Source of the DNA: Allostella vacuolata
Lineage (GTDB): Bacteria; Pseudomonadota; Alphaproteobacteria; ATCC43930; Allostellaceae
Assembly (NCBI GenBank): GCA_006739055.1
Contig: AP019702.1
Coordinates: 2,939,388 to 3,003,387, forward strand
DNA: 64,000 nucleotides
Direction of reading: 5' to 3'
Below, piece after piece: positions 45,823 to 64,000 of this stretch. The notes beneath the pieces are model-generated. The model ran no database searches. It was not told the origin of the DNA and worked only from the letters and a program-made list of their open reading frames with translations. Both the position numbers and the translations under genes were made by a program. Position 1 is the stretch's first letter. The number at the start of each line of letters is the position of its first letter.

Positions 45823-45897
45823 GGGCGATTAGCTCAGCGGTAGAGCGTCTCGTTTACACCGAGAGGGTCGGCGGTTCGAACCCGTCATCGCCCACCA
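45823..45897 (+). tRNA. tRNA-Val (anticodon TAC)
   Basis: 75 bases with encoded CCA. Acceptor GGGCGAT/ATCGCCC, anticodon stem TCTCG/CGAGA around TTTACAC, T arm GGTTCGAACCC. The 3' end borders the disturbed region, so it could have been an old integration site. Confidence 0.97.
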
Positions 45898-46052
45898 CCC
45901 GCCCTCTGCCGGCCGCCCATCTGCCGGGTCGACCAGGAGCGTGCCCGGCGAACGATTCCGCTGCCCGCCGCCATTCGGCATGTCCGCTCCCGGAACCCAT
46001 CTCTCGCCGCGTCGTTGGCCCCTGCAAGACACGGCAGCCCGCGGGAGGCAGA

Positions 46053-46259
46053 ATTGCCGCGACCACCGACAACGTGATCCGGGCGATCGATATCGAGACT
46101 GGCGACACGCTGTGGCAGGATGTCCTGCCGGCGGGCGGCCAGGCGACGCCGATGACCTATGAGGCGGGCGGGCGGCAGTATCTCGTCACCATGGCGGGCG
46201 GCCATCACTTCATGGAAACGCCGATCGGGGACGAGCTCGTCGCGTACGCGTTGGCCTGA
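46053..46259 (+). pseudogene. C-terminal fragment of a PQQ-dependent dehydrogenase
   Basis: About 68 codons. From IAATTDNVIRAIDIETGDTL through LPAGGQATPMTY to a final GDELVAYALA it matches the last propeller blade of membrane-bound PQQ glucose/quinate dehydrogenases. Nothing upstream belongs to such an enzyme, so the 700-residue front is missing. A relic of a deletion or of an earlier island near tRNA-Val. Confidence 0.75.
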
Positions 46260-46322
46260 CGTAGGCCCTGCCGTGACGACAGGCGCGGGCAGGCGCCGGA
46301 CGAGGAGGGCAGGCGTGGACGA

Positions 46323-46955
46323 ATGTTGAGCCTGTTCGAGCTCCTGGCGGCGCTGCTCACGCTGACCGCCCTCTTCGGGTGGATCAACCACCGCTTCCTG
46401 CGCCTGCCCGCCAACATCGGCATGCTGGTGATGGCCCTGGCCGCCTCGCTGATGCTGATCGCCACCGAGTTCGCGTTCCCGCGCACGCCGCTGTACGGCC
46501 TGCTGGCCGGGGCGGTGGGCCAGATCGATTTCTACGAGGCGGTGATGCACGGCATGCTGGGTTTCCTGCTGTTCGCGGGCGCCCTGCATGTCGATCTCGA
46601 GGACCTGCGGAACCGCGCGGTGACCATCGCGATCCTCGCCTCCCTCGGGGTCGTGATCTCGATGGCGGTCGTCGCGGTCGGCCTGTGGGTGATCGCCGGC
46701 TGGCTTGGCATGCCGCTGCCCTTCGCCTGGTGCCTCGTCTTCGGCGCGCTGATCGCGCCCACCGACCCGGTCGCGGTGCTGAGCACGCTGCGCCAGGTCC
46801 GGGTGCCGCCGGCCCTGCGGACCGACATGACCGGCGAGTCGCTCTTCAACGACGGGGTCGGGGTCGTTCTCTTCACCCTGGCGGTGTCCGCGGCGGTCCA
46901 GGGCCCCGGCGAAGTCGGCGTGCCGGGCATGGTGCGCCTGCTGCTGTCCCAGCCG
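46323..46955 (+). pseudogene. Na+/H+ antiporter (NhaP/CPA1 type), truncated by the integrated element
   Basis: About 211 codons of the front half. Starts LSLFELLAALLTLTALFGWI; the transport core LLFAGALHVDLEDLRNRAV and the TDPVAVL motif (GALIAPTDPVAVLSTLRQV), then GESLFNDGVGVVLFTLAVS, are intact. Homology stops after VRLLLSQ, near 46950, where reverse-strand recombinase sequence begins. The remaining half, with four to six membrane helices, is absent from the window. The frame stays open to 47423 by chance, reading antisense recombinase. Confidence 0.85.
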
Positions 46956-46975
46956 CCGCTCGATGCCGAAGCTGG
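46941..46975. other. Left attachment-site junction of the integrated element
   Basis: Antiporter homology ends and recombinase homology (reverse strand) begins within this interval; the exact crossover cannot be fixed without the other end. The recombinase gene loses its 3' part at the same point. Confidence 0.6.
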
Positions 46976-47708
46976 GCGCCTCGACATACCCCGCATAGAC
47001 ACACTGCCGGAGCAGCACCGTGACCCGCTCGTTGCAGACGCGCCCGCTGGTCTCCGGCTTCGGGAACAGGGGATGGTCCTGGAGGAAGCGCATCACGTCG
47101 GCCTGGGACTCGAAGTGGCCCGCGGCATAGCCTTCGAGGGCTTCCTGGACGACCGAGGCGGCCGGCTCGTCGCGCTTCAGCATCTTCCCGCGGCCGGGCA
47201 CGGTCACGTACTTGTAGCCGACCGGCGCCTGGAACACCCAGTAGCCGTTCATGACCCGGGCGCTCATGCGGTTCTTCACCTGCTCGCCGTTCTTCTGGCG
47301 CTGGTGCTGCGAGACGCTGGCGAGCAGGTTCTCGACCAGGATCGAGTCCGAGTCCTCGCCGAACTCGATGGAGGGGGATTCCAGGTTGCCGCCGGCCTTG
47401 GCGATGGCGCCGCGCAGTTCTAGGTGGGCCTGGAGGCCGCGGGCCAGGCGCGAGACATCGTCGATGATGACGACGGTGCCCTTGGCGCGGCGGCCGCGCA
47501 GGAAGGCCAGCATGGACTTCATGCCGGGCCGGTCGATGAGGCTGCCGGAGACGTCGTCGCGGAACACCTCGACGACGGCATAGCCCTTCATGCGGGCGAA
47601 CTCGCGGCAGCGGGTCTCCTGCGAGTTCAGGCCGTCGCCGACCTTGGTCTGCTTGATGCTCGATACGCGGCAGTAGATGACCGCCTGCTTCTGCTCCCTG
47701 TCCGTCAT
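46953..47708 (-). CDS. Large serine recombinase, 3'-truncated at the junction
   Basis: About 250 residues remain. The resolvase domain has the catalytic serine in VIYCRVSSIKQ, the EFARMKG helix, and VIIDDVSRLARGL; the recombinase domain follows to CVYAGYVEAPSFGI. The zinc-ribbon and coiled-coil parts expected afterwards are missing: past that point the open frame reads the antisense strand of the antiporter and is not protein-like. Starts inside the stop of the small upstream gene (ATGA), so translation is coupled. In the excised circle the gene would probably be whole. Confidence 0.85.
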
Positions 47709-49501: not shown

Positions 49502-49797
49502 CGCACGCCCCCGTGGAAGAGACGGAACGGCGGGCAGTGGCCGTCGGTGACGACACGGAACCCGTCGAAGCCGAGATAGACGCAGCGGTGATAGACCGGC
49601 CGCTCGCGCGAGCCGGTGAAGCTGTACTCGAAGCGCAGGTAGGGCGTGCCGAACGCATGGTTGGCAACCACCACACTTCCGATCACGACGAGCCACACAA
49701 GGCTACGCAGCCGCACCGGCGGCACGCGACGCGGGCGGGGCGGCTTGGCCGGCGGCGGAGCCGCCGGCACGCCTTCGAGGCGCATCTCGTCCGTCAT
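49498..49797 (-). CDS. Small membrane protein of the conjugative operon
   Basis: 99 aa. Proline-rich cytoplasmic lead, one membrane helix (LRSLVWLVVIGSVVVANHAF) and a short external domain with two cysteines. Sits between the coupling protein and the basic protein, with ATGA overlaps on both sides. Function unknown. Confidence 0.55.
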   Translation of the reverse strand: MTDEMRLEGVPAAPPPAKPPRPRRVPPVRLRSLVWLVVIGSVVVANHAFGTPYLRFEYSFTGSRERPVYHRCVYLGFDGFRVVTDGHCPPFRLFHGGVR

Positions 49798-51518
49798 GGC
49801 GTCCTCGTCGGATAATGGATGCGGAAGAGGGGATCGCCGCGCAGGCGCTTGCCCTCGATCGGGTTGTCCAGCACCCAGTCCCGCCAGGGCTCGACCTGGC
49901 CGTAGTGAACCAGGGTCAGGCGCATCGGCCGCAGCCCCTGCACGAACACCCACGCCTCGCCGCGCGGCATGGCGAGCACCTCGTCCGGCGTCATCAGCCG
50001 GCGCCCCAGCTCGCGGCTGGAGACGCCGAGGTCGGTCACCACCGAGCGGAAGGAATAGTCCTGCTTGCGGATGGTCGCCTCGGACAGCATGTCCGAGACG
50101 TGCTTGGCGCGGGCATAGCTGTTGAGGCTGCCGTAGACCTTGACCCCAGCGTAGGAGTCGATCGCTTCGGCCGCCTCGCGGCCCTCCTTGCGCACCAGCC
50201 CGGCATAGCTTTGGACGTAGAAGTCGGCGGTGATGCCGAGGCCGCGCATGGTCTCCAGGTCGGAGACGAGGTCGGCGAAGCGATAGTTCAGCGCCTCCTC
50301 GCCGACGATATGGATCGGCAGGCCGTCTGGCCGATCCTTGCAGGCGGCCACGAGGTTGTAGGCCTGCAGTGAGGTCAGCATTGCGAAGTCGCGGCTGTGG
50401 CTGAGCGGTGTCTGCAGGAAGGCGACGATCGGCCGCTCGCGCAGCTCGGCGATGCCCTGGTCGGCCGTCCGGCCATAGCCGGCGAGCCGGCCGCCCTGGT
50501 TGAAGGGCAGCAGCGCCTGCGTCGCCATCTCCAGGAAGGCGCCGAAGTTCTCCGGGTTGTGCTTCGCGCGATGCAGGAGGTTGGCCGCCTCGGTCTTGAG
50601 GAAGGCGACGATCGGATCGTTCGGGACCGCGGTCTCCAGGTTCCGGGCGACCCAGGACAGCATCTTCATGAGCCGCGGCGGATCGTTCAGGATCGCGAAC
50701 ACGTCGGCGGGCGTGCAGCGGGCGGGCTCGGTCAGCGCGCGCGTCAGCGTGACGAAGCCGATGCAGCGACGGGAGCCGCCGTTGAAGAAGACATCCTTGC
50801 TGTCGCTGCGCTTGTCGGGGATGAGAAGGGCGGCTACATCGGCCGTGCGCTTGATCGCGTCCATGCGGGTTTCGTCCTCGGCATAGACGGCGTCGAGAAC
50901 GGACTGGAGCGGGTTGAGCTCTACGTTGCCGCAGCGATCGAGATGGCGGCCCGTCGGGTTGACGCACCAGACCTCGAAGCCCTGCTGGCGCAGGCCAGGC
51001 GCCAGCATCGGCCCCAGCTCCAGCTTGGGGTCGGCGATGACAACGGACTTCGGACGCCCGCCGCGGGTGAGGTAGACTTGGTGGAGGATCGAGGCGACCA
51101 CCAGCCGGCTGGTCTTGCCGCCGCCGGGCGGCATCTCGACCAGGCTGAACGGGGCATCGGCGGGTGCGAACACCGGCCGCTGCCCCTGATACAGGCCGAG
51201 GAAGTTGCCGCTGGCCGGCATGTCCATGCCGCGGGCGCGGATATCATCCCAGGTCGCTTCCCGCGCCGTGCCGTGGTCGCTGGTGACGGCTTCCGCGCGG
51301 GCGAGGTCGCGGCGGAGGCGATAGTCGCGGACGAGGAGGATGAGGCCCTTGGCGAGGCAGGCGGCAGCGCACAGCGCCGCCGCCCCCGCCATCGCCGCCT
51401 GCTGCCAGGGCGCGTCCGGGGCCGGCCACAGCCACCAGGTGATGGCTGCGGCCGTCACCGCGACGGCGAGGTTGCCGTTGATCGGCCCCGTCGCCGTGCG
51501 GACCGGCACCGTGGTCAT
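49794..51518 (-). CDS. Type IV coupling protein (VirD4/TraG family)
   Basis: 574 aa. Two N-terminal membrane segments (about residues 17-62) then the hexameric ATPase domain: Walker A MPPGGGKTS (about residue 130), VIADPKLEL, and the region corresponding to Walker B, IHIVGEEALNYR, in which the usual aspartate before Glu is replaced by Gly-Glu; FYVQSYAGL follows as in VirD4. It would deliver the DNA-relaxase complex to the conjugation channel. Shorter at the C-terminus than VirD4, and no relaxase gene is in view. Confidence 0.85.
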   Translation of the reverse strand: MTTVPVRTATGPINGNLAVAVTAAAITWWLWPAPDAPWQQAAMAGAAALCAAACLAKGLILLVRDYRLRRDLARAEAVTSDHGTAREATWDDIRARGMDMPASGNFLGLYQGQRPVFAPADAPFSLVEMPPGGGKTSRLVVASILHQVYLTRGGRPKSVVIADPKLELGPMLAPGLRQQGFEVWCVNPTGRHLDRCGNVELNPLQSVLDAVYAEDETRMDAIKRTADVAALLIPDKRSDSKDVFFNGGSRRCIGFVTLTRALTEPARCTPADVFAILNDPPRLMKMLSWVARNLETAVPNDPIVAFLKTEAANLLHRAKHNPENFGAFLEMATQALLPFNQGGRLAGYGRTADQGIAELRERPIVAFLQTPLSHSRDFAMLTSLQAYNLVAACKDRPDGLPIHIVGEEALNYRFADLVSDLETMRGLGITADFYVQSYAGLVRKEGREAAEAIDSYAGVKVYGSLNSYARAKHVSDMLSEATIRKQDYSFRSVVTDLGVSSRELGRRLMTPDEVLAMPRGEAWVFVQGLRPMRLTLVHYGQVEPWRDWVLDNPIEGKRLRGDPLFRIHYPTRTP

Positions 51519-57318: not shown

Positions 57319-59271
57319 TCACTCCGCGCGCTCCGCGACGTCCGGCCAATCTTCCGGTACCAGTGCGGGTGGCTTGGTCCAAGGTCGCTCAACCAATGCC
57401 TCCTGAAACCAGGGGTCGCGCAGATTGGCATGCTCAATGACGATGATCTGGACACCAGGGGCGTCCTCGCGCACAAATCTATTAAGCAACTCAAAGAGCC
57501 GCCGCACGGCTTCCAGATCTGCGTCTTGCTCGGTCTTTTCGATCGAGCCACCAGCAGCCTCGTAGGAAGCTTCCGACGGGAAGTAGACCTGGGTAGGCTG
57601 ATCGATTAGCAGGAAACGTGGGAGAGGCAAGTTCTGGTTCGCCGCGAAGCGATGAAGTGCCAGCAGAGCAGCAAGATGATAAGCGAGATGATTCTCGCCA
57701 CCTCCGGTTCTCTGCATGAAGATCGGACGGCCAGGCCGGTCGAGCGTGACCGTCAGATTGTGCAGGTCGAGCCGCGCGGGGTACTGGCTGAACTCGCCAC
57801 CGAGCGCCGCAATATAGTCCGACATATACATAGAAATATTGTTCATCGTCGAGGCGAGTCGGGCGCCTGAATCGTCCGCGCCGATGCGCTGTTCCAGATC
57901 GGCGACGCGAGCCTTCAAGCGGCGCTGCTCTTGTTCGAGGCGCGCAATATTGGTTTCAGGTAGTAGATCTTCGAGGAACAAGCTAATTCGGCCGACAACG
58001 CGCGAAGCAGCGTTGTTGCGATTGCCCAGCTGCGCAATCATCTCACTTGCAGCGATCGCGCTTGAAAGTTCAACTTCCCTAGCCCGGATCTGGTCGCTGA
58101 TCGCCTGAAGCTCACGACGCTGCTCATCTAAATAAGCATCGAGCTGCGGACGCTCGCCGACGACAGCGCTCATCTCACGATCGAGCGATTCTAGGTCGGC
58201 GATTAGCAACTCCGCGATTGGGCTTCCCAGGCCGAGATTTGCTTCTGCGAACGGCCATTGCCACTCGCTGGTCGTCTTGTTGATCGGCAAGGCCTTGATT
58301 GAGCTCAACCGATCATGCTGCTCAGTCGCCTCAATCTGAAAGCCATCCGCACGCTTCGCATACTGTTCTGCCGCATCGAGCCGGCGCTGGACAGCCCGGC
58401 GCCGCTCGCGCAGCGCTACCAGATCATTTTCAATCGCCGTCAGGCGTCTGCCATCGTCCTCTGGCACCGGCGTCGGCTGCCAGGTCAACCCTTCCCGCAA
58501 TTGATCGACGACGTTTGCGTCCGCCGCAGGGCTTGTCTGGAGTATACCGACCGCCCGCGCCTCGGACAGTAACCCGATTGCACGCTCTTCCGAGGTGTCA
58601 ATCGCGGCTTTTGCCGCTTCCAACAACTTAGTATTTAGGCGCAACTCACGCTGGGCAATGCGTAACCGGGAATCCAGGCTGAACCGATCTCGCGACGACA
58701 CACCCAATAAGATGGGCAAAGTATCCTTGATTGTCTGCGGTTGAAACGGCTCATTCTGCCGGTAGAAGAGCTGGTCCTTGTTGGCGACAATGGTCTGCTT
58801 CTGGAATAAATAAAAATAAGTGTGCTTGACATTAGCGTCATAGCTCTCGCGGCTATTGTCAATAGGTACGTCGGTGGTGTTCTCCGGAATGCCCAGCTGC
58901 TTGGAAAGAAAGTTCACTACGCCATCATCATCGTCATTGACCATGAGGTCGTCGAAGTCGGGAATGGCGACCTTGGCCCCGCGGCGCACCATGGCAAGGC
59001 TGCCGCTACTGCGCCCCGGCCCCGGCGCCGGCTTGGCGACCAGCACCTCCTCGCCTACGAAGGCATAGAGGACCGCGTACCAGGCGACGCGTTCCTGGAT
59101 AATGCCTTCGGGAATGTTAAAGGTCGATCGCCCCATGCAATATTCGATGATGTCAGAAAGTGCGGACTTGCCCGTTGACGAGCGACCGGTGATCACGTTG
59201 AGACCGTCATGGAAAGGCAAGTCGCGCCGGCGGCCGTCGTGGCTGTAAATATGGATTGATTGGATCTTCAC
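57319..59271 (-). CDS. DUF3732 ABC-type ATPase (ABC-three-component system)
   Basis: 650 aa. Walker A GRSSTGKSAL at residues 29-38, long coiled-coil arms (about residues 200-470), and C-terminal Walker B FLLIDQPTQVYFP, the form typical of DUF3732 proteins, then VIEHANL. SMC-like. Starts with GTG at 59271, overlapping the middle-component stop (GTGA). This ATPase is the motor/sensor of ABC-3C systems described in comparative-genomic work as conflict systems. Confidence 0.85.
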   Translation of the reverse strand: MKIQSIHIYSHDGRRRDLPFHDGLNVITGRSSTGKSALSDIIEYCMGRSTFNIPEGIIQERVAWYAVLYAFVGEEVLVAKPAPGPGRSSGSLAMVRRGAKVAIPDFDDLMVNDDDDGVVNFLSKQLGIPENTTDVPIDNSRESYDANVKHTYFYLFQKQTIVANKDQLFYRQNEPFQPQTIKDTLPILLGVSSRDRFSLDSRLRIAQRELRLNTKLLEAAKAAIDTSEERAIGLLSEARAVGILQTSPAADANVVDQLREGLTWQPTPVPEDDGRRLTAIENDLVALRERRRAVQRRLDAAEQYAKRADGFQIEATEQHDRLSSIKALPINKTTSEWQWPFAEANLGLGSPIAELLIADLESLDREMSAVVGERPQLDAYLDEQRRELQAISDQIRAREVELSSAIAASEMIAQLGNRNNAASRVVGRISLFLEDLLPETNIARLEQEQRRLKARVADLEQRIGADDSGARLASTMNNISMYMSDYIAALGGEFSQYPARLDLHNLTVTLDRPGRPIFMQRTGGGENHLAYHLAALLALHRFAANQNLPLPRFLLIDQPTQVYFPSEASYEAAGGSIEKTEQDADLEAVRRLFELLNRFVREDAPGVQIIVIEHANLRDPWFQEALVERPWTKPPALVPEDWPDVAERAE

Positions 59272-59756
59272 GGTCGAACGCCCAATGTCATGTAAAGAGT
59301 GGCCCGATCCCCGATGCGAGCGAATTGCTTGCCTAGAAAGCGGGCGACACGTTGGCAAGAGACCGTTTCGGGGGTGCCGATGACCGACTTGCGAATGCCG
59401 TCTGGCACAGCCTTCAGCCGCCCTTGCGCTTCGACCGTAAACAGACCCATCTGCATCAGGAAGCCCAAAGCCTCGAAGGCGTAGGGCAGTAGATCGGTTG
59501 TGCGCCGCGCGAAGCCAACGAGCAGCTCTGGATGGGCCGCGACAAGTTTCAGCAGATAGCTGCGATTGCCCGCATGCATAATCTCGCGCGAGTGCTTGTG
59601 GAGGCAGAGCGGCAGCACCAACAGCACAAGCGAGAAGGGCATGCCGCGCTCGTCCTCTTCCTCGAAGGCGCACAGCGCCCGCATTATGATAAGGCCGCAA
59701 AAGGCCGGGTTGAAGAGGTTGCGAATTTCAACCGGTCGCTCGTCCCACCGCTTCAT
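59268..59756 (-). CDS. ABC-three-component middle component
   Basis: 162 aa, all helical with a winged-helix-like second half. Begins KRWDERPVEIRNLFNPAFCG, matching the middle-component proteins that lie between the ATPase and the effector in ABC-3C operons. Overlaps both neighbours by four bases. Likely an adaptor between the two larger proteins. Confidence 0.75.
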   Translation of the reverse strand: MKRWDERPVEIRNLFNPAFCGLIIMRALCAFEEEDERGMPFSLVLLVLPLCLHKHSREIMHAGNRSYLLKLVAAHPELLVGFARRTTDLLPYAFEALGFLMQMGLFTVEAQGRLKAVPDGIRKSVIGTPETVSCQRVARFLGKQFARIGDRATLYMTLGVRP

Positions 59757-60949
59757 GCAGCGATCCCAAGCAATTGTTGAAGCCGCTCGAAGAAGCGAGG
59801 GTGCCAATACACCCGGGGCAGGGGGCTCGCATTGGCGAGTATGTGGAAGGCGCCGCGCACCACGTATGGCTCGGTGACCCGCTCACGGATGCGGAGCGAC
59901 ATGGTCTCCATCTCAGCCCAGCGGTAGAGTTCCTTCCCGGCTGAGAGGCATGCCTCCTCGTTACCGGTGTCGCTTAACCGCTCGAAGACGATCTCGCGAT
60001 AGCGCGTCCACTCGTCGACCAGCCGGTCCTCATATTCCTCGATCTCTCCGGAGATCAGCAGACTCTCTCTCGCCCAACTCGAGCGCTGCTCGAAAGCGCG
60101 ATAGTAGTCGATGATAGCATTGCGGATTCGGGTCGCCGATAGGTCGAGGGCGCGCAACTGCTCGACGAACAGCCTAGGATCGTTGACGACATCGATCTGA
60201 TTCTCGGGCCGGTGCCCCCGGAATGTGATCGGAAGGTTGTCGGTGCGATATTCTTCGGCGATTGCCGAAAGCTTATCCGAGACCTCATGGCCGTGGACCG
60301 GCTCTTTGCGTTCACCGGTCAGCATTTTGATCGCGAGATCCATCCACCAACCTTCGAGGCGTTCGAACACGGCGGTCCGAGCCTCTCTCCGGATTGTGCG
60401 TAAGTGTAGATTGATAAGAGTTGGCAGGTCGGTAATCCGGGGTGTCGCATCAATGATGGCGATCCGGTTATAGAAATCACGGAGCTCCGCGTCGCTCAAC
60501 TGTTCGAGATCTTTGCGTATTCGGCCGAGCAGTGCGGATGTGCTGGTGGTGAGGGCCGCCTGTGCCTGCTTGACCCGATCATCGTCGCCGCGTGCGCTTT
60601 CGGTAAACAGGATGAGGTACGTGCCTTCACTAAGTGCGGCCGTCGTGAAGAGCAGGAACTGGCCGTCTGACGCGATGCTCCCGGTCTTGCGATAATAAGA
60701 CAACCATATACGGACGGATTTCCAGAAATCGGTCGAAAGGTTGGTTAGCTTATCGCCTCCCGCCTTATGCTTGAGCGATGCGAGCGATCGGATGCCACTT
60801 GCGTTAACGAATTCGATATCGTCTTCCTTCTCAAGGAATACGGCACTGGTTTCCGGAAGCGTCAAAATCTTAAAAAGGGCGAAGCGCGGCTGGAATATAT
60901 AGTCTAAGCCTTGTTCGGCCGCAGAAAAGGGCGAATCAGATGTCGGCAT
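59753..60949 (-). CDS. ABC-three-component effector with nuclease-like N-terminus
   Basis: 398 aa. The N-terminal 110 residues resemble the Cap4/DUF4297 restriction-endonuclease fold: a D/E cluster in FLEKEDDIEF (residues 38-47) and a lysine strand LASLKHK (56-62), followed by DFWKSVRIWLSYY. The C-terminal region (from about residue 230) is the helical ABC-3C type. It is the first gene of the operon; ATG at 60949 is preferred over a TTG nine bases upstream. Nuclease activity is inference. Confidence 0.7.
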   Translation of the reverse strand: MPTSDSPFSAAEQGLDYIFQPRFALFKILTLPETSAVFLEKEDDIEFVNASGIRSLASLKHKAGGDKLTNLSTDFWKSVRIWLSYYRKTGSIASDGQFLLFTTAALSEGTYLILFTESARGDDDRVKQAQAALTTSTSALLGRIRKDLEQLSDAELRDFYNRIAIIDATPRITDLPTLINLHLRTIRREARTAVFERLEGWWMDLAIKMLTGERKEPVHGHEVSDKLSAIAEEYRTDNLPITFRGHRPENQIDVVNDPRLFVEQLRALDLSATRIRNAIIDYYRAFEQRSSWARESLLISGEIEEYEDRLVDEWTRYREIVFERLSDTGNEEACLSAGKELYRWAEMETMSLRIRERVTEPYVVRGAFHILANASPLPRVYWHPRFFERLQQLLGIAA

Positions 60950-61201
60950 TATGTTCAAGTTCCATCAAGCCCCCTATCCGCCTGTGGGGGGATGCAGAAA
61001 TACACACTGTTGTCGTCCGATGCGTGGCGACAAGCCGAGAGTCGGCTAACGATCAAGGGCGGTGAGTGTGGATGCACGATGAGAGCACTCATGCAGCCAA
61101 CTCCTGAGCCGCGGTCTCGTGTTCTTTCGTTCTTGGACCGGCAACCCTCCAGCCATCCTTCTGCACGCGATCAGCCCGCCGGGTGTGCGCCTTCGGCCGC
61201 G

Positions 61202-61328
61202 TCAATGGCCGGCCCGCTCCGTTCGCTGGCGCTCCCGTGTTGGCCATGACCCGCACCCTGCTCGGCCCGATGTCTCCCCGTGCATCGGCTGGATGGTCCA
61301 GCCGGCCTAACGAAAGGAGACTACCATG
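61202..61328 (+). promoter_or_regulatory. Repeated hairpin leader, copy B
   Basis: About 127 bases ending at the start codon of the 76-residue gene; identical to copy A in blocks 61230-61250 and 61282-61303 (hairpin) and in CGAAAGGA (61311-61318). The rest of the 60950-61325 gap holds no gene I can support. Confidence 0.65.
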
Positions 61329-61556
61329 ACGACCACCACCCACGACCGACCGCTTTTCCGCGTCAGCTGCGCCCGCATCACCGGCAAGGACGCCAAGGGC
61401 AACGACCAACTCGGGCGGCCGAAGGAGATCGGCGCCGTCTGGCCCCGCAAAGGCGACAAGAAGGGCGGCATCATCGCCCTCGACCTGATCCCGATCGAGC
61501 TGATGCAACGGGATTGCGTCCTCTTCCTCGTACCCGTCGGCGAGGACGGCCAGTAG
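61326..61556 (+). CDS. Small conserved-type protein behind leader B
   Basis: 76 aa. Strand-rich, with FRVSCARITGKDAKGNDQLG and GAVWPRKGDKKGGIIALDLI; resembles the short DUF736-like single-domain proteins of plasmids in size and style, without a clear family match. CGAAAGGAGA gives its ribosome site. Followed by a strong hairpin. Confidence 0.6.
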   Translation: MTTTTHDRPLFRVSCARITGKDAKGNDQLGRPKEIGAVWPRKGDKKGGIIALDLIPIELMQRDCVLFLVPVGEDGQ

Positions 61557-61567
61557 CCCGTCCCGCT

Positions 61568-61596
61568 GCCAGCATCCCCAGTCTGGGGATGCTGGC
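61568..61596 (+). terminator. Perfect 14-bp hairpin
   Basis: GCCAGCATCCCCAG and CTGGGGATGCTGGC pair completely around a single T (a 3-5 base loop in practice), 12 bases after the gene. No U-tract. It starts and ends CCA/TGG like the hairpins of the downstream array. Confidence 0.65.
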
Positions 61597-61658
61597 TCAT
61601 CTTCGTATCGCGCGCCGGTTGGGTAGCGCAAGCGGATAAAAGTGCGATCCCTGATAGC

Positions 61659-62292
61659 GTGGCGAATCGGGGGATCGCCGCCTCGGACCTGTCGGGGAAG
61701 CTGACCCGGAGGCCCGCCCGCCGGCACCGGAACGCCGTTGCCTTCATCACCGTCCGGTCCTGGCGCGCGGCCAGCCGTTGCAACGACCTGCGCGCCTTCA
61801 AGCAGCAGAACCGGGCGACGGTGTCGACGCTGCTGTCGGCGGCGGCCGACGACGTCGCGGTCGAGGTGGCGGCACTGCTGGCGCCTGGTCCTGGCTGGTC
61901 CGTGACCTGCATCGCCGGTGGCCATAGCCGCAGTCCTGACAGCTGGGGCAAGCGGCTGGCCCGCCTGGTCGCCGCCCGGCTGGCGCTGCCCTTCGTCCAG
62001 CGCTTCGCCGACCGGCCGGTCACCGGCAGCAGCCACCCGAAGGAGTTCCGCCGCCTGCCGCCGCTCGCCTGGCACCAGGCGCCCGACGGGCCCGTCATCG
62101 TCGGTGGATGACGTCGTCACGTCGGGCTGGCATATGGAGGAGGCGCTGGGCATGATCCGGTCGACCGGCCATATGACGGTCGGCTTCGCCTGGATCGGCG
62201 GCACGGTGAAGGGCGGCGAGGAGGCTGCCCCATCGGTCCGGGAGAGGGCGGGGACGGAGCCGCGCTCGGCAGGCGCATGGCTCGGTTCATGA
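61659..62292 (+). pseudogene. Phosphoribosyltransferase-like gene with a single-base frameshift
   Basis: The first frame (GTG at 61659) runs to 62111 and includes WSVTCIAGGHSRSPDSWGKR and the run-up GPVIV; the phosphoribosyl-pyrophosphate loop VDDVVTSGWHMEEALGMI continues in a different frame from 62104. Deleting one G near 62103 would join them into about 210 residues. Either a real frameshift mutation or a sequencing/assembly error. Role on such elements unknown. Confidence 0.7.
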
Positions 62293-62340
62293 ACGTCTGC
62301 GGTGGCCGGGTTCGTCTGGAAAGGCTCAGGCAGACGCTAC

Positions 62341-62760
62341 GCGCAAGATGTGCGCTGTAATACAGCGCATCTTGCCAAGGGAGGCCCGCTGCGCGCCTCC
62401 CGTTGGATCCCTCCCGGCCGTTGGCGCTCCGCCGGCATCGAGCCGGCTCCGCACCAATGCACCGGTCTGGTCCGCTGCACCACCAATCAGGGGCGCCTTC
62501 GTGCACCCCCGATACCCCCATGACCCAAGGAGACTTCGCTCTCCCTGGACCCATCGAGCCAAGGGGCGATCCCGCGCCCCCTGACAACCCCCGGGCCAGG
62601 CGTGCGCCGCCTGGACCTGCGCCAGGGGCTGTCGCGCCCCTGGACCACGACCGGTGTTTCGGCACCGGCTTCGACCATGGGGCAGTTCGTGCCCCTGGAC
62701 CGACGACCAGCGTCTCGCCGCTGGACCCGCGACCAAGGAGCGTCCTTGGATCCGGAGGGC
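62341..62760. repeat. Array of about ten short hairpins with common CCA...TGG architecture
   Basis: After a long imperfect stem at 62341-62375, hairpins follow at 62375-62406, 62525-62548, 62559-62583, 62596-62614, 62622-62643, 62651-62668, 62675-62698, 62707-62724 and 62733-62749, with weaker ones between. Starts are 24-37 bases apart from 62525 on. Most begin CCA and end TGG, and the linkers resemble ACCnnCGA. Stem sequences differ while pairing is kept: CCAGGCG/CGCCTGG, CCAGGGGC/GCCCCTGG, CCAGCG/CGCTGG, CCAAGGA/TCCTTGG. No plausible protein gene covers it. Confidence 0.8.
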
Positions 62761-62780
62761 GTCCGCCTTGATCGAGACGA

Positions 62781-62809
62781 TTGACGTCAGGCGTCATTAT
62801 CGCTATAGT
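62781..62809 (+). promoter_or_regulatory. Sigma-70 promoter of higBA
   Basis: TTGACG (62781-62786), 17 bases, TATAGT (62804-62809), with the toxin start nine bases after the -10. A near-consensus promoter. Confidence 0.75.
62782..62796. promoter_or_regulatory. Operator overlapping the higBA promoter
   Basis: TGACG-TCAGG-CGTCA is a perfect inverted repeat over the -35 region, as expected for autorepression by HigA. Confidence 0.55.
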
Positions 62810-62817
62810 ATAACAAG

Positions 62818-63101
62818 ATGATCCGTAGCTATCGAGACAAGCGGACGGCGCAGTTTGCGGAAGGGGCCTTCGTCAAGGCGTCCAGGGCTTCGAGGCCCAG
62901 GCGGCGCGTCGGCTGTCCGTCCTCAATGCCGCGACCTCGCTCGACACGCTGCGCGCGCTGCCGAGCAACCGGCTGGAAGCGCTGAAAGGCGATCGTGCAG
63001 GGCAGTATTCCATTCGCATCAATCAGCAATGGCGCATCTGCTTCGAATGGCCGGCCAGCGCGACAGGGCCGGAGAACGTCGAGATCGTGGACTACCACTG
63101 A
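62818..63101 (+). pseudogene. higB: HigB-type toxin, frameshifted
   Basis: Reads MIRSYRDKRTAQFAEGAFVK and then goes out of frame at about 62881. From 62883 another frame continues QGFEAQAARRLSVLNAATSL to LEALKGDRAGQYSIRINQQW and ends VEIVDYH with its stop at 63099. One missing base accounts for the break; intact it would be 94-95 residues of the RelE/HigB fold. The product is probably non-functional unless the base is a sequencing error. Confidence 0.85.
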
Positions 63102-63115
63102 GAAAGGAGAAGACC

Positions 63116-63436
63116 ATGTTTATGAGAGCCGTACATCCCGGCGAGATTCTGAAGGAGGAGTTGGAAGGGCTCGGCGTCAGCGCGGCGGAGTTCGCGCGGC
63201 AGATCGACGTGCCGCCCAACCGCATCAGCCAGATCATCGCCGGCAAGCGCGCCGTGACGGGCGATACGGCCCTGCGGTTCGGGCACTGGTTCGCCACCGA
63301 TCCGCAGTTCTGGCTCAACCTGCAAAGCGCCTACGACATCCGCATCGCGGAGGAAAAGGCCGGCGGTGAAATCGCACGCTTACCGGTTCGCGCAGGCGCG
63401 CCGATGGCAGATGCGCCCGGCCATCAGCCGGGATAG
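63116..63436 (+). CDS. higA: HigA-family antitoxin
   Basis: 106 aa. Starts MFMRAVHPGEILKEELEGLG, with the XRE-type helix-turn-helix VSAAEFARQIDVPPNRISQIIAGKR and the family's ALRFGHWFATDPQFWLNLQSAYDI. Intact, 14 bases after the toxin stop, with AGAAAGGAGA as ribosome site. Represses its own promoter in known systems. With a broken toxin it may persist as a regulator of the downstream SIR2 gene, 6 bases further. Confidence 0.92.
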   Translation: MFMRAVHPGEILKEELEGLGVSAAEFARQIDVPPNRISQIIAGKRAVTGDTALRFGHWFATDPQFWLNLQSAYDIRIAEEKAGGEIARLPVRAGAPMADAPGHQPG

Positions 63437-63442
63437 TCGCGA

Positions 63443-64000
63443 ATGAAGCCGCCCGCAGACAGGACCAGAACACGCCAGCGCGAGCGAGAGGCACGGCTTG
63501 ATTCCAATGCGGCGGCCGGAGGCCTCGCCGCAAGCACGGAAGACCCCATGCCCGAACAGACGCCGCAATCACCGTCGCAACGCGCTCGCGGCGCGGCCCC
63601 CGATACAGAAGGCCCGGGATTGATCGAGCCGTGCCGATACAAGCTCCTTTCGCCGATATCCGCTGGTGAGGGCGAGGATCTTCTGGCTGGCAAGTCGCGA
63701 GCGGACGGCCTGCGCCGAATGCAAGCGTTGCTTGCGGACTGGCTCCGCATGGAGAACGTGGTCGTGCTGACCGCGGCCGGCACGTCGGTCAGTGCCGGAG
63801 GCCGCCTGATGGCGGGCCGGCGGACAAACAACCTTGAGTGCCTCGTCCTCGATGCCGTTCAGCGATGCGCGCTGGATCAGCAGACGGCGGCGATCATCCG
63901 TCACCGTATGTCGCGCTGGCCGGTAGAGCCGGACCGGGGGCCGACGGACTTCGAAGCGTGGCTGAGCTACCTGTTCAATGCATCAGAGCTGCCGAAGCCG
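63443..64000 (+). CDS. SIR2-domain protein, partial (runs off the window)
   Basis: 186 codons seen, no stop. After a charged lead of about 75 residues the chain reads LLADWLRMENVVVLTAAGTS followed by VSAGGRLMAG: the nucleotide loop of SIR2-like domains (usual form GAGxS; here AAGTS), then TNNLECLVLDAVQRC. SIR2 effectors in anti-phage systems deplete NAD+. The real start may be an internal Met such as 63548. Six bases after higA, so probably cotranscribed. Confidence 0.65.
   Translation, partial: MKPPADRTRTRQREREARLDSNAAAGGLAASTEDPMPEQTPQSPSQRARGAAPDTEGPGLIEPCRYKLLSPISAGEGEDLLAGKSRADGLRRMQALLADWLRMENVVVLTAAGTSVSAGGRLMAGRRTNNLECLVLDAVQRCALDQQTAAIIRHRMSRWPVEPDRGPTDFEAWLSYLFNASELPKP

Follow-up and report, generated by a model that had tools for sequence, protein, structure and literature searches.

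The window, a stretch of 64,000 nucleotides of the Allostella vacuolata genome, contains the left part of an island of about 36 kb that lies between 1066-bp direct repeats with 98.6% identity (Table 1). Within the repeat lies the 5' portion of a gene for a Na+/H+ exchanger, which is present in full after the right copy, and the left copy cuts off a large serine recombinase whose nearest NCBIfam model is CcrB. The two repeats may have arisen from integration by homologous recombination or from capture of host DNA. In addition to the genes in Table 1, the island carries ArdC, a relaxase and further candidate defence genes. For the SIR2-HerA pair, PADLOC yielded E-values of 1.5e-222 (SIR2) and 0 (HerA) on locus L010.

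Table 1 Features of the island and of the hairpin module (window positions unless marked as genome positions)
Feature	Position	Strand	Basis or remark
Left copy of the 1066-bp direct repeat	45890–46955	.	Right copy at genome 3022513–3023578, beyond the window
Large serine recombinase, N-terminal part, cut at the left island edge	46950–47708	-	PF00239, E 6.5e-25
VirD4/TraG-type coupling protein	49794–51518	-	PF02534, PF12696
Lamassu-type LmuB, LmuA (ABC-3C)	57319–60958	-	PADLOC E 2e-127, 1.5e-61; PF20283, PF12532
Head part 1 (IR1), imperfect inverted repeat GCAAGATG-TGCGCTG TAAT CAGCGCATCTTGC	62343–62375	+	Conserved in relatives
Head part 2, core hairpin CCAAGGGAGGC...GCCTCCC(G)TTGG with conserved bulged G	62375–62406	+	Covariance model R1, pair counts
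Candidate nic region TTGGATCCCTC, consensus GTTGCATCCC	62403–62413	+	Invariant ATCC
Variable hairpin array, about ten stems	62413–62752	+	Stem count compared to shuffles; related arrays 3' of head
First array hairpin, two-part stem TTGG..GCCGGC-ATCGA-GCCGGC..CCAA	62421–62457	+	Alignment of 23 loci
Perfect stems of the array	62431–62447, 62529–62544, 62563–62580, 62596–62614, 62622–62643, 62651–62668, 62679–62695, 62707–62724, 62733–62749		
Sigma-70-like promoter beyond the array, probably of the HigBA unit and not part of the array	62781–62809	+	
HigA-like antitoxin region	62855–63436	+	TIGR02607, E 1.6e-26
SIR2 gene start, SIR2-HerA defence pair running beyond the window	63443–64000	+	PADLOC

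A sequence-only reading of this DNA had reported about ten hairpins at 62341–62760, directly before a toxin-antitoxin/SIR2 unit. Both observations were confirmed. A HigBA-like unit follows the array, with the SIR2 gene downstream. Counting perfect stems with 6 bp or more in 62340–62772 gave 10, whereas 500 shuffles that preserved dinucleotides averaged 1.16 and never exceeded 5. If stems of 5 bp are included, the number is 11 (62351–62749), 10 of them with at least 6 bp. Relative to shuffled sequence, the whole region folds unusually well, with z-scores of -5.07 for the + strand and -6.61 for the - strand. The HigB-like toxin frame before HigA (62815–63100) looks broken. Just upstream of the hairpins, a phosphoribosyltransferase-like gene is split over two frames (61659–62292); an intact relative of it adjoins a tyrosine recombinase on a plasmid of Azospirillum thermophilum. 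Positions 61568–61596, previously regarded as a relative of the array, turned out to be a separate 13-bp palindrome outside the module, behind a 76-aa ORF (61326–61556) for which viral contigs contained no relatives.

The hairpins had been described as one array, which applies to the variable part from about 62413 to 62752, whereas the first two hairpins (62343–62411), judged from their conservation, are a head distinct from it. The region 62343–62752 is a conserved module of head and array, with the array as its 3' part. The first array hairpin has the family consensus TGGCGC..GGCATYGAGCC..GCGCCA, and its inner stem shows compensatory changes among the 23 aligned loci. The CCA...TGG ends noted earlier are frequent in the window copy, but are not a feature of the family: a CCA start was seen in only 24 of the 114 perfect stems collected from 30 related loci. 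Loops of 6 nt occur in 56 of these stems, and 80 distinct 5' arms were counted among them. The likeness of the linkers does extend to related loci, where an ACC-type linker recurrently follows the stem.

The exclusion of terminator, REP/BIME and CRISPR forms in the sequence-only reading stood. Intrinsic terminators (a G + C-rich stem followed by a T run) were absent from 61500–62900. A single 15-nt family with 3 copies at spacings of 55 and 26 does not have the form of a CRISPR, nor do 3 copies in the host genome and 1–3 in others have that of REP/BIME or RIME elements. A linear consensus scan detected no -35/-10-like promoter site inside 62343–62752. At the gathering score, Rfam returned only tRNAs in the window (best array score 19.6 bits, cut-off 50), and a relaxed E-value added nothing relevant to the array. 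Phage records contained no match to the array.

Related copies were found by BLAST three times in the host genome, once in a sister genome (98% identity) and, unannotated and intergenic, on plasmids of Rhizobium, Tritonibacter, Devosia and Bradyrhizobium. All copies except that of Bradyrhizobium start with a common head, and the variable array comes only after it; the Bradyrhizobium plasmid (L020) has a hairpin array without a recognisable head. The copy on Sinorhizobium pSymB shares part of its array with the window, and its head was identified by eye as the most divergent one. In relatives, the head consists of the inverted repeat GCAAGATG...CATCTTGC, the hairpin GCAAGGGAG..CTCCC(G)TTGC and ATCCC. 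Arm length and inserts of IR1 vary, while CTTG in its 3' arm is nearly invariant; IR1 is probably a recognition repeat for an accessory protein or the relaxase. The ATCC directly 3' of the core hairpin is invariant in the seed alignments.

A search with a covariance model of the head matched 22 of 387 genomes sampled from the host's class and 20 of 397 from the phylum; for alphaproteobacterial genomes the share is about 5%. Two matches, L111 and L064, have neither IR1 nor an array, look false and were excluded from most counts. Searching with an exact DNA pattern for the core of the head produced an independent set of loci, at least 119 stretches in species-level genomes and 7 in viral contigs. 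The former are mostly from Alphaproteobacteria, with others from Nitrosomonas, Nitrospirales, Planctomycetota and further taxa. Among the matches listed, 59 of 121 had at least three perfect hairpins within 300 nt on the 3' side, as opposed to 6 of 115 on the 5' side. In the first locus set, 144 hairpins were counted 3' of the head compared to 36 expected, and 48 compared to 34 on the 5' side. Hairpin enrichment is limited to the 3' side of the head.

Some contigs carry two heads. In L083 (7905–7954 and 15389–15437) they are 7.4 kb apart in direct orientation, and in L078 (8046–8098 and 9609–9660) 1.5 kb apart in divergent orientation. The segment between direct heads could be transferred. In island-type loci, no second head copy was found behind mobC.

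The head lies directly upstream of a relaxase gene in 10 loci, and in nearly all of these mobC comes first. The loci belong to Sinorhizobium, Frigidibacter, Methylomagnum, Desulfosarcina, Nitrosospira and five further genomes, covering Alpha-, Beta- and Gammaproteobacteria as well as Desulfosarcina. In Frigidibacter (Alphaproteobacteria), Methylomagnum (Gammaproteobacteria), Nitrosospira (Betaproteobacteria) and Desulfosarcina, the carriers are small plasmids on which the head is followed by a MobC-like gene and the relaxase; in S. meliloti this arrangement is found on pSymB. The five loci from the other genomes were obtained with tblastn. Among the matches listed, a relaxase gene is adjacent on the 3' side and on the same strand as the head in 24 of 126 independent loci. 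A relaxase profile (A4) was built from ten members; the family is PF03432 in Pfam. It was detected in 31 of 36 head-positive genomes, leaving five without it, compared to 1 of 36 head-negative genomes (Fisher p ~1e-13).

Where the relaxase is on the same contig but not adjacent, 24 of 27 pairs have it on the opposite strand, at a distance of 4.4–24.3 kb on the 3' side of the array; as some pairs are related or share one relaxase, a binomial p (on 23/26) overstates their independence. The relaxase is 5' of the array in three loci. The copy in the window has its relaxase 19.4 kb downstream (genome 3021222–3021980, beyond the window), with a MobC-like gene behind it. An orphan oriT lacking a relaxase was considered for this copy and was rejected on finding this gene. 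The island, which combines the relaxase at this distance with a truncated recombinase and the 1066-bp flanking repeats, may be an integrative and mobilisable element (IME). In two genomes (G410, head 4692998, relaxase 7678; G359, head 5449231, relaxase 7181), the island spans the start of an apparently circular main contig; perhaps the insertion site is near the replication origin.

Since the head stands directly upstream of the relaxase gene, mostly with mobC in between, in these 10 loci, it looks like an oriT of the MOBP type. Its surroundings and layout agree with this assignment: mobC/relaxase genes adjoin it in mobile elements, and a hairpin is followed by a conserved nic-like sequence. 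Several head carriers were typed as MOBP by MOB-suite. The ATCC may resemble the nick region of RP4/R64, and we infer both position and strand of the nick within the candidate nic region. Of the options left by the sequence-only reading, the origin or transfer site is thus favoured by the linkage of the head to mobC/relaxase and its co-occurrence with one relaxase family. The relaxase-adjacent heads of Methylomagnum, Desulfosarcina, Nitrosospira, L107, L130 and L161 have little or no array, indicating that the oriT can do without the array. Comparison by eye with the Paracoccus oriT sequences in PMC3832669 showed no likeness to the head. A search of literature text for the core sequence GTTGCATCC matched no oriT work among the titles, and a limited search of open-licence papers found no account of an oriT of the head type, nor of any oriT with hairpins arrayed next to it. 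OriT, MobC, MOBP relaxase and IME are parts of known kinds. OriT sites of this type lacked annotation in every record examined.

The earlier suggestion that pairing is kept while sequence drifts was supported. In an alignment fitted to the covariance model, and in agreement with a 9-sequence seed alignment, 97.3% of the head helix cells are paired, and 63 cells are changed on both sides compared to 14.9 in shuffles, none of 500 of which reached this value. In the third conserved hairpin (array hairpin 3), two pairs show 10 and 11 double changes and zero one-sided ones. These compensatory changes across unrelated genomes point to selection acting on base pairing. G-T pairs are scarce, with 2 in 539 head cells and 0 in 178 cells of array stems. 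RNA helices normally evolve through G-U. The scarcity of such intermediates therefore argues for DNA hairpins rather than RNA, and a DNA-level structure is favoured for the covarying stems.

The scarcity of G-T pairs fits single-stranded hairpins and cruciforms alike. Read on the head strand, stems with one mismatch show A.C and G.T in a ratio of 48:16, or 15:7 after clustering. These counts lean towards folding of the strand opposite the head, more weakly so after clustering. RNA energies were rejected as an indicator of the folded strand: in 36 of 45 loci the - strand seemed much more stable, but this is an effect of composition, as the z-scores of the strands show no difference (p 0.43).

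The array might also act in double-stranded form, as a row of operators or cruciforms bound by MobC or a different DNA-binding protein. The MobC of RA3 binds an imperfect palindrome beside oriT (PMC4175270), and a cruciform, too, would need strict Watson-Crick pairing. However, RA3 has one operator and not ten, and the diversity of the 5' arms leaves no common sequence site visible. We regard this explanation as unlikely, although it keeps some weight.

A structured RNA, either a 5' leader or a small RNA, that controls mobilisation in the manner of the SGI1 sgm-sRNA would account for the strong folding z-scores of the array region. SGI1 indeed requires an sRNA encoded beside oriT (PMC9299015), and several plasmid-type loci have mobC right after the array, whose sequence could thus form part of a mobC leader. 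On the other hand, the covarying stems contain hardly any G-U pairs, Rfam gave no match at the gathering score, and the linear scan detected no promoter-like site in the array. Moreover, the gene behind the array varies in identity and strand (26 +, 17 -). The RNA option left by the sequence-only reading is therefore disfavoured and appears improbable to us.

The genes after the array vary between loci, which leaves the idea that the array belongs to the toxin-antitoxin/SIR2 unit unsupported. These genes are rich in defence functions. In a scan without a control set, Gabija-like GajA was found in 5 and HerA in 3 of 61 proteins; SIR2, N6 methylases, BrxL, HamA and subtilase/AAA proteins (IetAS-like) are further cargo. 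L009 and L010 are 90% identical through the array, then carry different cargo and are alike again at ArdC, and the L007 copy diverges in the middle of the array. Both cases would suit a platform for recombination at which cargo is swapped. Yet the array is also kept in plasmids with mobC directly after it, and no recombinase is consistently linked, which leaves this explanation a slim chance. That the array is palindromic debris on a decaying island is highly improbable: two frames near the array (toxin and phosphoribosyltransferase) and the recombinase at the left edge do look broken, but compensatory change across distant genomes and the fixed position beside oriT speak against a non-functional remnant.

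Taken together, we consider it likely that 62343–62752 is the oriT region of a mobilisable island, in which the head serves a MOBP relaxase and MobC, and the array is a DNA-level part of that region. Direct support comes from the linkage of head and relaxase and their joint presence in genomes, from the constant place of the array on the 3' side and from the selection on pairing. The retention of the module next to differing cargo genes also speaks for this view. Going by position and architecture, MobC and the relaxase would bind and nick the head. One strand would then be unwound and exported via the type IV secretion system of a helper, presumably assisted by the island's own VirD4-type coupling protein. 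The array beside nic would become single-stranded and fold into short hairpins, kept apart by G-poor linkers. Such hairpins may be docking sites for the start of the complementary strand, or may keep the end of the transferred strand protected and unentangled. Folding of the array in the transferred single strand is the reading we prefer for this step, albeit tentatively. Relaxases nick 3' of the recognition hairpin on the transferred strand. If the GTTGCATCCC strand is transferred, the recipient would receive the array before any other DNA; with the other strand the array would arrive last.

The islands possibly represent a widespread class of defence islands with two-part mobilisation, combining an oriT, a built-in single-strand hairpin array and a distant relaxase facing the oriT, although we would not yet rely on this generalisation. 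If true, the array would act during entry, as a single-strand origin or a protective end of a new type. The head model provides a sequence handle for oriT sites of alphaproteobacterial and other islands, and linking one class of defence islands with a particular relaxase would make the spread of that class traceable. It also raises the question why an oriT keeps ten fast-drifting, strictly Watson-Crick-paired hairpins alongside.

Compared to known systems, the module can be set beside the oriT-mobC-nic region of RA3 (PMC4175270), where oriT likewise directly precedes the genes for the small RHH protein MobC and a MobP-group relaxase, and several inverted repeats occur in a highly structured intergenic region. 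The module described here differs in its core, another hairpin with GTTGCATCCC, and in having about ten inverted repeats arranged as an array; in the islands, moreover, the relaxase is kilobases away on the opposite strand. Like IMEs (PMC5704250), the island combines a recombinase, here truncated, a probable oriT and a relaxase, and some IMEs also have their own VirD4; unlike in these, the oriT is set apart from the relaxase, and defence cargo lies in between. According to that 2017 review, no canonical relaxase-encoding IME then described came from Proteobacteria (PMC5704250). With the Frpo/ssi single-strand promoters in the leading regions of plasmids (PMC11541004), which are active in single-stranded form, the array shares a DNA secondary structure near oriT, but it lacks -35/-10-like sequence in the linear scan and consists of numerous short hairpins where those promoters have a single long imperfect duplex. 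In the island SGI1 (PMC9299015), too, oriT is accompanied by an additional structured element, but this is an RNA (the sgm-sRNA), and SGI1 uses the tyrosine-recombinase-like MpsA in place of a relaxase.
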